A stretch of 64,000 bases of DNA. Source: Synechococcus sp. UW140 (GTDB lineage: Bacteria; Cyanobacteriota; Cyanobacteriia; PCC-6307; Cyanobiaceae). The notes below the pieces were generated by a model. It saw only the letters and a program-made list of their open reading frames with translations, ran no database searches and had not been told where the DNA came from. This document shows, piece by piece, positions 5,718 to 30,023 of the stretch. The stretch is taken from assembly GCA_945875915.1 (NCBI GenBank), contig CAMCMT010000001.1, forward strand, positions 1-64,000, in the 5' to 3' direction. The position numbers and the translations under genes were made by a program. Positions within the stretch are counted from its first letter, which is position 1. Every line of letters starts with the position of its first letter.

Positions 5718-6170
5718 TCAGGCCACCTCGCCGGCAGTCTCCTGATCGGCTTCTCCAGCCAGGAGGGCGCCGGCGGTAGCGGCATCAATCGGCAGCAGCC
5801 AGATTGCACCGGTGTCCTGGTGGATTTCGATGCGGAATTCGGCGCCGGGTTCCAGACCCATGCGCCGGGTATAGGCATGGCCGATCAGCAGGTTGCCATT
5901 GCCATGGACTCGGGTGCGGAACTCGGCTTGGCGCCCCTTGATGCCCGATCCGGGCTTGCCGCCGCCACTGGCCTGGGAGGGCAGGGCATAGCCCTTCGCC
6001 ACCACTAGGGCCCGGTAAAAGCTTTTCTTAAGGAGACGTCCGCTTGGACCCACATAGCCACAGGCTCGCGCAATCTGATCTTCGGGCCGATTGCTAAGCG
6101 AGCGGGCCTTTTCGAGCAAGGCCTTGCCTTCGAGCATCGTGCTTCCAGGAACATGCTGGGGTTCAGCCAT
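5718..6170 (-). CDS. cyAbrB-type transcriptional regulator
   Basis: About 150 residues. The N-terminal part (LEGKALLEKARSLSNRPEDQIARACGYVG) is typical of cyanobacterial AbrB-like proteins, and the C-terminal part (FRTRVHGNGNLLIGHAYTRRMG) is the swapped-hairpin AbrB DNA-binding region, which in this cyanobacterial clade sits at the C-terminus. Family members regulate carbon and nitrogen responses and other global programmes. ATG 6137 is an alternative start giving a protein 11 residues shorter. It is downstream of the ctaCDE operon in the same orientation, separated by about 100 nt, but appears to have its own spacer. Confidence 0.88.
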   Translation of the reverse strand: MAEPQHVPGSTMLEGKALLEKARSLSNRPEDQIARACGYVGPSGRLLKKSFYRALVVAKGYALPSQASGGGKPGSGIKGRQAEFRTRVHGNGNLLIGHAYTRRMGLEPGAEFRIEIHQDTGAIWLLPIDAATAGALLAGEADQETAGEVA

Positions 6171-8659: not shown

Positions 8660-8663
<4 letters not shown>

Positions 8664-9556
8664 GACTGGAGCGGCACCGGATTGACAGGGGAAGCGCTGA
8701 CGGGCAAAGGAGCAGGGCTGTTCTTCGTCACCCAGGCTGAATAGGACTCGGGGTCTTCCACCACCACGGTGGAACGCATGCCGCCGTGGTAGGGCCCGCA
8801 GAGCTCGGCGCAGATGATTGGGTAACGGCCTTCCTTGGTAGCCGTGAAACTAAGCAAGGTGGGCTGACCTGGAATCACATCCTGCTTGAGCCGGAACTGG
8901 GGCACCCAGAAGGCATGGATCACGTCCTTGGCCTCCATGTTGAGGGCCACGGCTTGACCCACTGGCACATGCAGTTCGCCACTAATAATGCCACTCTCGG
9001 GATAACGGAAAATGAAGGCAAATTGCATGGCGGTTACGTCTACTTTTACAGCGTCAGCGCCGGAGCCAGTCGGGCTGATGCCGGCCCAGACCCGGGCCGG
9101 GCCAGCCCCCGCCTCCATGGCCATCCCCGGGGCCATGGAGGCTGCCATGGCTTGGTCGGCTGAGTTGTGCATCGCATGAACGCTGTGGTCATTGAGGGGG
9201 GCCATGCCACCCATGCGCTCATAGATGTCGTAGCTGTAAATACCAATAAACAAAACCACAATGGCCGGCACGGCGGTCCAAAAGATCTCCAAGGGCAAAT
9301 TGCCTTCAATCGCCAGGCCGTCACCGGTGTCGCCTGCCAGCCGCCGATAGCGAACCAAGCTATAGATCAGCAGGCCCACAATGCCGAGCAGCAGGCTGGT
9401 GCCAATGCTGAAAAGCACCTGGAACAGTTCGTCGTATACCGGCGCATTGGCACTGGCATCGATGGGTAGAAGGTTCACGTTCTGGCCAACCCAAAGGCCA
9501 ATGAAAACGAGCACCACGCTCAATCCGAAGGTGAGGATGGCAGCTGGAATGGGCAC
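8660..9556 (-). CDS. ctaC: Cytochrome c oxidase subunit II
   Basis: A 298-residue protein with two N-terminal membrane helices followed by a cupredoxin domain. The CuA site is visible as CAELCGPYHGGM, preceded by DVIHAFWVPQF. Between the helices and the cupredoxin domain is a Met/Ala-rich insert (around MAASMAPGMAMEAGAGPARV), longer than in the minimal family and possibly copper-related or simply disordered. The start at 9556 is GTG. It is the first gene of ctaCDE and diverges from ctaA across a 217-nt spacer dense in inverted repeats. Confidence 0.95.
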
Positions 9557-9572
9557 GGAGCTGACACGAAGG

Positions 9573-9718
9573 CATCCATCTTATGAAGGATGGCGCTTTC
9601 GGGCGAAAGTGGAGGCGCGAACCCTACTAAGTGCCCAATCCGCCCCTGGGGGGTGAGGGAACCCTCACCTCTTAACGCCTGAACGCTTCGTTGCGTCGGG
9701 ATCTCCGCAACGAAGCGT
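9573..9718. repeat. Cluster of inverted repeats in the ctaC-ctaA divergent spacer
   Basis: Four inverted repeats follow one another between the two oxidase-related transcription units. catcc/ggatg lies at 9573-9592. ctttcg-gg-cgaaag lies at 9596-9609. The near-perfect palindrome ggtgaggg-aa-ccctcacc lies at 9652-9669. The strongest is a 13-bp perfect arm pair, acgcttcgttgcg at 9683-9695 and its complement at 9706-9718, with a 10-nt loop. None is followed by a T-run in either direction. They could be operators or leader hairpins for ctaC or ctaA; no known motif is recognised. Confidence 0.8.
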
Positions 9719-9724
9719 GGCTGA

Positions 9725-9738
9725 GCGATCGCGATCGC
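9725..9738. repeat. Two overlapping HIP1 octamers
   Basis: GCGATCGC occurs twice, sharing two bases (gcgatcgcgatcgc), 36 nt upstream of the ctaA start. HIP1 is the highly iterated palindrome of many cyanobacterial genomes. A doubled copy in a promoter spacer is unusual enough to note but may be chance. Confidence 0.85.
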
Positions 9739-9773
9739 TACCTTGTCATCAGGTTGCTTCGGACGACAGCTCG

Positions 9774-10802
9774 ATGGCTTCCAGGCTGCATCACCAACTT
9801 CAACGGCTGACCGCCCACCTCGTCGTCGCCCTTGTCGCCTTGGTGGTAATCGGCGGCGCCACCCGGGTGATGCAGGCCGGCCTGGCCTGTCCCGATTGGC
9901 CCCTCTGTTACGGCAGCTTCCTGCCCGGTCGCCAGATGAACCTGCAGGTTTTTCTGGAATGGTTTCACCGGCTTGATGCCTTTGTCGTGGGCATGGGCGT
10001 GCTGGTGCTGGCAACCACGGCGGTGGCCAAACGGCAGCAACTGCCCCAGTGGCTGCCCTGGCTCAGCGGGGCCTGCCTTGTTTTGGTGGCCTTCCAGGGA
10101 GCCCTCGGTGCCCTGACCGTGACCTTGCTGCTGCCCGCCGGCATCGTCACCGCCCACCTGGCCACCGCCTTGCTGCTGGTCATCCTGGTCAGCGTCTGCC
10201 ACCAGTTGCTGGAAGCTGGGATCTCCTCCCCAGCAACTGAGCTCTTTGGCGGCTCCTTGGCGGCCCCAGGCCTTCCCGCTACGCGGGTGGTCCCTGGCCC
10301 AAGTGCCGTGGCCCTGCCAACGGCACCCCGTTGGTGGTCCTGGCTGGCTGGCTTGGCCACCCTGCTGGTGGCGGCCCAGAGCCTGCTGGGCGGCCTGATG
10401 GCGACCCAATGGGCCGCCAGCCTGTGCTTGAGCGCCGGCACTAGCTGCGCCTGGCTCGGCGCCCATCGTTTGGTCGCCACCCCGGCCGCCCTCTTGGTCC
10501 TACTGCTGGCCGTTATCACTGGTGTAGTGCCGGGTTGGTGCCGCCAGCAACGACCGCTAACGACCACCGCAGCCCTATTGGTGATCAGCCAGATCGGCCT
10601 GGGGGTTGCCAGCCTGCGCCTTCAACTCTCGGTTCCTGGCGTGACCATCGCCCACCAACTGGGGGCGGCCCTGCTGCTGGCGATCCTGGCCGCCCTCACC
10701 TGCCGCGGCTGGCTTGCCAGCGGTCCCCAGCCCATTTCAGCTCCTGCTCCTGCGCCCCGCGCTGTCCTGTCCCCTTCCCCAGCCGAGGTTGTTCATGGTT
10801 AG
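9774..10802 (+). CDS. ctaA: Heme A synthase (COX15/CtaA)
   Basis: 342 residues with eight predicted membrane helices. Diagnostic segments are [20 protein letters not shown] and [16 protein letters not shown] (a heme-ligand His helix) in the first half, plus a second four-helix repeat with [17 protein letters not shown]. It oxidises heme O to heme A for the oxidase. Residues in the middle loop ([19 protein letters not shown]) form an Ala/Pro-rich insert encoded by DNA with the short palindrome cccgc-tac-gcggg. ATG 9774 is preferred over upstream in-frame starts because translation there begins at the family N-terminus. It overlaps ctaB by 8 nt. Confidence 0.93.
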
Positions 10803-16866: not shown

Positions 16867-16928
16867 CTAGCGGGTGGGGAAACCCGAATCGGGCGCCAGC
16901 TCCAGGCCCGGGTCGATAGGGTGCGGCC

Positions 16929-18043: not shown

Positions 18044-19219
18044 TCAGGACGACATGACCTCGACGCTGGCCAGGCCTGGGCCGAGGAGTTCGGCAAAGCG
18101 ATTGAGCTGCTGCTTACTGCCAAGCACCACCAGCAGCTGACCAGGGGCTAGACGTTCGCTGCCTCCGGGGTTGGCGATCAGCTCCGACTCCACTGGCTCC
18201 CCGGGGGCCCCAGCCAGGGACGGGGGGGTGCGGATCGCTAGCACCAGGGCACCGCTGCGGCGGCCCAGCTGCAGGTCCGCCAGGCTCTGGCCGCTGAGGT
18301 GGCTGAGCTGGTCCGGATCGAGGCTGAGCTGGAATTCATCCACCTCGCAATCGGAGCCGGCCAGCAGCTCCATGAAGGTCACGGCCAGGGGCCGCAGGGC
18401 GGTTGCGGCCATGGTGCGGCCGCCGGCCACGTAGGGACTCACCACCTGGTCGGCGCCGGCCAGGCGCAACTTGCGATCGGCCTCCTCGCTGTCAGCCCGG
18501 GCAATCAGGCGGCAATGGGGCGCCAGGCCGCGGGCGCTGAGGATCACATAGAGGTTGGCAGCGTTGTTAGGAAGGGCCGCCACCAGGGCACGGCACTGGT
18601 GAATGCCAGCCTCCTGCAGGGTTTCATCGAGGGTGGCATCGGCCAGCAGCACCCGCAGGCCCCGCTGCTGGGCCTCGGCCACCCGTTCGGTGTCCATCTC
18701 CACCACCAGCAGCGGCACGTCCTCGGCGCTGAGCTGTTCGGCGATTTCGCGGCCGATGCGGCCGTAGCCGCAGAGAATCACGTGGTTATGCATGCGCCGC
18801 AGTTGTCGCCGGGTGCGTCGATCGCGAAGGATCTGGAAGTAGCCGGTGTTGGTTAATTCCAGCAGTTTCTGCAGGGTCTGCTGCACCACCACCAGGCCGC
18901 CGACCAGCAGCAGGGTGGTGACAACGCGGCCGCCGCCGGAGAGCACCCTGGTGGCGGGGTCGCTGAAGCCCATGGTGCTGAGCGTGATCAGCACCATCCA
19001 GTAACAATCCCCCCAGTCCCAGCCCTCGGTGGCCCGATAGCCCACCGCGCCCGCATTCACCACTCCGGCCAGCAGCAGCAGCGGCGTGGCCCCTCCCCGC
19101 TGCAGCAGGGCTTCGGCCAGGCCGGGACCCTTGGAACGGTGCCCCGGGCGCCGCCGTTGCAGACGGCCCCTGGCGGTCTGCAACGGCGGCGGCTGGGGCC
19201 GCTTCCCAGACGGGATCAT
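18044..19219 (-). CDS. Two-TM potassium channel with RCK (TrkA-N/TrkA-C) domain
   Basis: 391 residues. The N-terminal 50 or so are Pro/Arg-rich, then a two-helix pore unit ([17 protein letters not shown], pore [28 protein letters not shown]), an RCK-N domain with [19 protein letters not shown] and a C-terminal TrkA-C-like region. In a canonical K+ filter the pore would read TVGYGD; here it reads TMGFSD, so selectivity may differ. The start ATG 19219 overlaps the glycosyltransferase stop by 4 nt (ATGA). A 16-bp perfect inverted repeat lies in the first codons; a downstream start cannot be excluded. Confidence 0.82.
19149..19191 (-). repeat. 16-bp perfect inverted repeat at the start of the K+ channel gene
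   Basis: Arms at 19149-19164 and 19176-19191 are perfectly complementary, with an 11-nt loop (ggcccctggcg). In the mRNA this would be a GC-rich hairpin starting about 30 nt inside the coding sequence. It encodes a Pro/Arg-rich low-complexity region ([17 protein letters not shown]), so the repeat is likely selected as nucleic acid rather than protein. No T-run follows. Confidence 0.85.
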
Positions 19220-29807: not shown

Positions 29808-29990
29808 ATGGGGTGGCGTTCCTGGATGCCGAAGCAACGTGGCGACCATTATGAACCTTGCTACCGCCTGAACGCTTGCTGTCGCCAGGGTTCTGGCCCG
29901 ACGCTGCAACATGCTGTTGCGAGATTTCCTTGCTAGGGGGCTTGCACCAGCTGCCCTGGGACCGCCCCGCCAGGATGGAACGAGCCCTGA

Positions 29991-30023
29991 GCAGCCTTCT
30001 GGGCTGGTCGCCCAGAAGGCTGC
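29991..30023. repeat. 14-bp perfect inverted repeat between petC and the DUF3067 gene
   Basis: gcagccttctgggc at 29991-30004 pairs perfectly with 30010-30023 over a 5-nt loop (tggtc). It lies 21 nt upstream of the DUF3067 start and 184 nt upstream of petC, in a divergent spacer. There is no T-run, so a simple terminator is unlikely; a leader hairpin of the DUF3067 message or a protein-binding site are possible. Confidence 0.85.

Follow-up and report, generated by a model that had tools for sequence, protein, structure and literature searches.

In the 64-kb stretch of DNA analysed here (the window), the genes for the oxidase subunits and for heme A synthesis, ctaCDE and ctaAB, diverge from a gap that is filled with inverted repeats. 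This raises the question of whether the repeats are DNA operators, RNA hairpins or chance sequences, and whether one of them connects the two operons. The first-pass annotation, made on this sequence alone, considered both a shared regulator and a leader RNA plausible. It also stated that strand symmetry cannot tell a DNA operator from an RNA hairpin. This holds for one sequence, but a comparison across relatives separates the two, as described below.

Repeats of the ctaC-ctaA gap

The gene ctaC (8660..9556, minus strand, GTG start at 9556), which is the first gene of ctaCDE, matched the COX2 domains (PF00116 / PF02790), and ctaA (9774..10802, plus strand, ATG start at 9774), which is followed by ctaB, matched COX15-CtaA (PF02628). 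The AbrB-like domain (PF14250) was found in the product of the cyAbrB gene (5718-6170). The Pfam matches bear out the earlier calls for all three genes, and all of the repeats listed by the first-pass annotation are present in the 217 nt between the start of ctaC and that of the divergent ctaA. From the ctaC side, these are a weak stem (CATCC/GGATG or CCATC/GATGG, 9573..9593) flanking the predicted ctaC -10 box; the stem ctttcg-gg-cgaaag (9596..9609), which overlaps the presumed ctaC -35 region; the 8-bp stem ggtgaggg-aa-ccctcacc (9652-9669); a perfect 13-bp stem with a 10-nt loop (9683..9718); and two overlapping HIP1 octamers, GCGATCGC (9725..9738).

The chance estimate was based on a count of perfect stems with loops of 2-12 nt across the whole window. 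There were 468 stems of at least 6 bp, which corresponds to ~1.6 expected per 217 nt, and 42 of at least 8 bp, while stems of at least 13 bp occurred in three places. Against this background, only the 8-bp palindrome and the 13-bp stem stand out; the ctttcg/cgaaag stem is unremarkable because one or two stems of 6 bp are expected in a gap of this size. Other long perfect hairpins of the window are located at 19148-19191 (16 bp) and 29990-30023 (14 bp), and one of 12 bp lies at 9110-9142, inside the ctaC coding sequence.

Five other genomes of the genus contain the ctaC-ctaA pair, separated by a gap of nearly equal length, and the gaps were aligned. The ctttcg stem retains 4-5 of its 6 pairs in the relatives, and the weak stem retains 3 of 5 in each of the five congeners. 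The 13-bp stem has all 13 pairs in the window alone and 5-9 of 13 in the five congeners. Its left arm is 23% invariant and its right arm is 77% invariant, the latter being included in a conserved block (GTCGGGATCTCCGCAACGAAGCGTG region, 9695..9719, plus strand, 80% invariant in the congeners) that covers the presumed ctaA -35 and the sequence immediately before it. Marine relatives have a conserved block, GTTGCAGTCGTCCATANAACGTGACG, comparably placed with respect to the ctaA -10. This second block before the ctaA promoter is ~40 bp from the palindrome. Given that the two nearest relatives carry an imperfect version of the 13-bp stem, it most likely arose from an older imperfect repeat that template switching recently made perfect. 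The most striking hairpin of the gap is among the least conserved, and a hairpin reading from a single sequence can mislead.

The genome of the window has two copies of the doubled HIP1 14-mer; at the cta locus, only the window and its nearest relative (G002) carry it. The right-hand ATCGC belongs to a conserved element predicted to be the ctaA -10 (ATCGCTAnCTTG), within which ATCGCTA is conserved family-wide. Judging from the alignment, the double HIP1 is this putative -10 element plus a recent left-hand addition.

Conservation and position of the 16-bp palindrome

The 8-bp stem contains a 16-bp palindrome, GTGAGGGAACCCTCAC (9653..9668, centre 9660.5), with the 6-4-6 form GTGAGG-GAAC-CCTCAC, which is considered here as a putative protein-binding site for both promoters. 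Among the six aligned congeners, 15 of its 16 positions (94%) are invariant; for the stretches flanking it, the proportions are 38% and 17%. The sole change in the core is one base in G004, which disrupts a pair, and no compensatory changes were detected within the core in the aligned congeners. The outermost pair of the longer stem is free to vary, and 6-8 of the 8 pairs are kept in the five congeners. The strict motif has one match per genome in the genus. As far as the aligned gaps allow one to judge, the 16-bp palindrome is the only conserved repeat of the gap, the others being strain-private or unremarkable. A lack of stem conservation in relatives, which the first-pass annotation had named as grounds against its proposal, was found for all of the stems except this palindrome.

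To extend the comparison, ctaC-ctaA gaps were gathered from Cyanobiaceae, and an unsupervised search for palindromic motifs was carried out on 97 non-redundant gaps. The search returned the palindrome GTcaGgaATtcCtgAC with a log-likelihood of 307; shuffled sequences reached 31, and the next motif, which is partly similar to the palindrome, reached 223. The G+C-rich subset alone yielded the palindrome GTGaGgaATtcCtCAC (log-likelihood of 220 versus 143 for the next motif). The related palindrome in the gaps of the family, GTSNGSRATYSCNSAC, is positioned between two predicted outward-facing -10 boxes. In all eight further groups with several alignable species, the palindrome site is more conserved than the remainder of the gap. 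Marine Synechococcus and many Prochlorococcus have GTCAGG as the left half-site and a degenerate right half (GTCAGGGATGGGAGAT). The palindrome is absent from part of Prochlorococcus (genus g56) and from genus g9 despite the intact gene pair, and a class-wide sample of loci revealed no convincing motif match in the same region of other cyanobacterial families. In one locus (L077), ~20 bp tandem repeats of the GATCTGYGTTGRGRCACT type were found within ~200 nt before the ctaA match, at the expected place of the palindrome. Based on strict and relaxed pattern scans across the family, most of the inspected matches outside the cta locus fall in reading frames; since the strict motif is also unique in each genome of the genus, the palindrome looks dedicated to the cta locus.

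A plain sigma-70 consensus scan of the region found no promoter. The strongest motif obtained from the gaps without constraints is nATCGCTAccTTg before ctaA, present in 93-99% of the non-redundant sequences, and it is read as a predicted ctaA -10 element, which in the window corresponds to ATCGCTACCTTG (9734..9745, plus strand, hexamer TACCTT at 9739-9744). On the ctaC side, most relatives carry the plus-strand sequence ANNNTATG, giving a predicted -10 box with the family pattern TANNNT on the minus strand (TAAGAT at 9578..9583 in the window). In the window, the distances between the palindrome centre and the inner edges of the two predicted boxes are 77.5 and 78.5 bp. In other lineages, the nearer distances on the ctaC side cluster at 57.5-60.5, 67.5-69.5, 77.5-79.5 and 88.5-90.5 bp, and this spacing fits helical phasing (p ~0.01-0.02 for a period of 10.5-10.75 bp, calculated over distinct states; several periods were compared). 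Distances on the ctaA side are 58, 68 or 78 bp in most lineages and 22.5, 30.5 or 92.5 bp in others; over all ctaA-side distances, the phasing was not significant. The palindrome has the appearance of an ancient, conserved site for a protein, midway between two predicted promoters.

This position bears directly on the possibility that the repeats are leader-RNA hairpins of ctaA or ctaC, acting as an attenuator, a riboswitch-like element or a stability element. Such a role would agree with the unusually good folding of the window sequence, with z ~-3.7 and -3.9 for the two strands. Two congeners, in contrast, fold no better than shuffled controls (z -0.7 and -1.4). Judged by the predicted -10 boxes, neither transcript would include the repeats between 9596 and 9718, which are upstream of both starts, and the location of the palindrome there fits a DNA operator, not a leader RNA. 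Moreover, no terminator (a G+C-rich stem followed by a T run) was found within the repeats, an Rfam search gave no match in the gap, the 13-bp stem is not conserved, and the 16-bp core shows no compensatory changes. The leader-RNA explanation, put forward as one of two options in the earlier reading, was rejected since two congeners lack the unusual folding and the pairs are not conserved; we regard it as very improbable.

Two Cyanobium genomes (L070 and L074) contain an ORF inserted between ctaC and ctaA, with the gap duplicated on either side of it. In the two genomes, the duplicated stretches span 154 nt at 79% identity and 111 nt at 87% identity. The palindrome is present in both copies; the ctaC-side copy has the predicted ctaC -10 only, and the ctaA-side copy has the predicted ctaA -10 only. 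Each copy retains the palindrome beside one -10, as would be expected if both promoters depend on it, and this strongly suggests that in the undivided gap one palindrome serves both genes. The inserted ORF (1880-2773 in L074 and the corresponding stretch in L070) encodes ~300 aa, MPFTHEQIQRLRHRHRGYILTLATE..., and had no Pfam match in L074.

It could also be supposed that the repeats have no function and derive from chance or from repeat families (HIP1, G+C-rich background). This largely holds for the ctttcg and weak stems, for the left-hand part of the doubled HIP1 and for the 13-bp stem in its perfect form. For the palindrome, this explanation is already contradicted, as it accounts neither for the conservation nor for the retention in both duplicate copies, and for the gap as a whole we give it hardly any probability.

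In loci from which ctaC has moved away (L012/L061 and L016), a palindrome is still found before ctaA. Upstream of the relocated ctaC, two genomes have a site of moderate strength and the others a weak one, a mixed picture as to whether the site serves both genes. In six loci with ctaCDE apart from ctaA (L012, L016, L042, L056, L062 and L077), a cyAbrB gene is located just upstream of ctaA. This gene normally follows ctaE, and its position in the split loci suggests either a loss of ctaCDE from between cyAbrB and ctaA or an insertion of ctaCDE there.

Candidate binding proteins

The cyAbrB gene product, which had been suggested as a regulator, is encoded in the window, and no link between it and the palindrome motif was found. 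The site of NtcA, GTA-N8-TAC, was not matched, since the palindrome reads GTGA-N8-TCAC. In the literature searched, there was no PlmA motif with which the palindrome could be compared.

The leading, though unproven, candidate is the thioredoxin-coupled PedR or the response regulator Rre1, which is linked to plastoquinone, both of the LuxR/NarL type; binding by either one would tie the oxidase supply to the photosynthetic redox state. This proposal concerns the identity of the binder and is compatible with a DNA operator. It is favoured because the cta form GTNNGG-N4-CCNNAC resembles the palindrome before groES: the cta site shares its 16-bp 6-4-6 geometry with GTTCGG-TCAM-CCGCAC, found before groES in nearly all of 30 picocyanobacterial relatives. 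In PCC 7942, the motif reported for Rre1, which has sites before chaperone genes, is GTNCGGK, and groES is one of its reported targets (PMC13421787). In nearly all of the 30 Cyanobiaceae examined (L272-L301), the 16-bp groES palindrome, GTTCGGTCAMCCGCAC, lies ~150-210 nt before the gene, so that the published half-site of Rre1, GTNCGG, appears to be one arm of a complete inverted repeat. In the window, GTGGGGAAACCCGAAT (16874-16889), located upstream of groEL (start 16803, minus strand), is the second-best match to the freshwater cta matrix.

However, the cta matrix scores the groES sites low: the centre is RATY in the cta palindrome and TCAM before groES, and position 4 of the cta site is variable rather than fixed as C. 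The half-sites in the window, GTGAGGG on each strand, have A in place of C at this position and do not match GTNCGGK; GTGCGGG half-sites occur in the cta palindromes of some other genera.

PedR is a small LuxR-type regulator that controls the respiratory gene ndhD2 in Synechocystis PCC 6803, and PedR-like proteins were found in most of the Cyanobiaceae members examined. For PedR (Ssl0564) of Synechocystis, the published motif is RWWTRGGYNNYY, and the review that gives it reports no cta target (PMC13421787). By eye, this motif is loosely similar to the cta site, with a shared RGG core. No cta-type site stands out before pedR. The strong motifs before pedR probably represent upstream coding sequence.

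Three Prochlorococcus genomes with the cta motif (G006, G062 and G008) have just two GerE-domain genes each, one for a PedR-like protein of ~95 aa and one for a longer protein presumed to be Rre1, and a LuxR/NarL-type binder in these genomes must therefore be one of the two. Nevertheless, two GerE-domain genes are also present in genomes without the cta motif, and the number of such genes does not track the loss of the motif. Taking both sides together, we consider binding by PedR or Rre1 a tentative proposal with somewhat less than even odds.

Another candidate is the clock-output regulator RpaA. According to a 2026 review, ctaAB and ctaCDE are RpaA targets in Synechococcus elongatus PCC 7942, which places the same two operons under one regulator (PMC13421787). 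On the other hand, the palindrome was not found in the other cyanobacterial families sampled, and a strict motif that is unique in each genome of the genus is unlike a regulator of over 150 genes. In addition, RpaA is an OmpR-type protein, and such proteins usually bind direct repeats, whereas the cta site is a palindrome. RpaA is thus an unlikely binder, well behind PedR or Rre1 in our estimate.

A putative operator shared by ctaCDE and ctaAB

Based on the above results, we suggest, with a probability of about 0.8, that the palindrome at 9653-9668 is a DNA operator through which a dimeric regulator controls ctaCDE and ctaAB jointly. The regulator, possibly of the LuxR/NarL type, would bind the double-stranded 16-bp site midway between the two divergent promoters and govern the oxidase subunit genes jointly with those for heme A synthesis, which would keep the production of enzyme and cofactor in step. 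Its action would be mostly activation, since in most lineages the centre of the palindrome is at about -70, -80, -90 or -100 from the predicted starts, that is, at positions typical of distant activators; a simple repressor would be expected to have its site over the promoters. The remaining stems would have no part in this mechanism. At the level of sequence comparison, the operator is well supported by the palindrome itself, its conservation, its position upstream of the predicted -10 boxes and its retention after duplication. The shared regulator envisaged in the first-pass annotation has gained from these data, as one palindrome is conserved midway between predicted outward-facing -10 boxes and is kept twice after duplication of the gap.

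The arrangement resembles the shared operators of divergent bacterial promoters in that one palindrome lies between the outward-facing, here predicted, promoters of linked operons. Divergent oxidase and heme A loci are known elsewhere, e.g., ctaA and ctaB of Bacillus, which are in neighbouring divergent units; the regulators differ from the cyanobacterial case. In the literature searched, we found no description of an operator site between cyanobacterial ctaC and ctaA.

Cyanobacterial respiration and photosynthesis share electron carriers, and the literature found does not describe how the abundant picocyanobacteria set their oxidase supply. A single family-wide operator joining the oxidase and heme A operons would be a direct handle for purifying its binding protein, and the duplicated gaps of the two Cyanobium genomes offer a natural display of the parts that each promoter may need. 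In picocyanobacteria, including much of Prochlorococcus and marine Synechococcus, it is conceivable, although we consider it rather doubtful, that a dedicated LuxR/NarL redox regulator (PedR or a relative), with one operator per genome, sets the supply of terminal oxidase and heme A according to photosynthetic electron flow.
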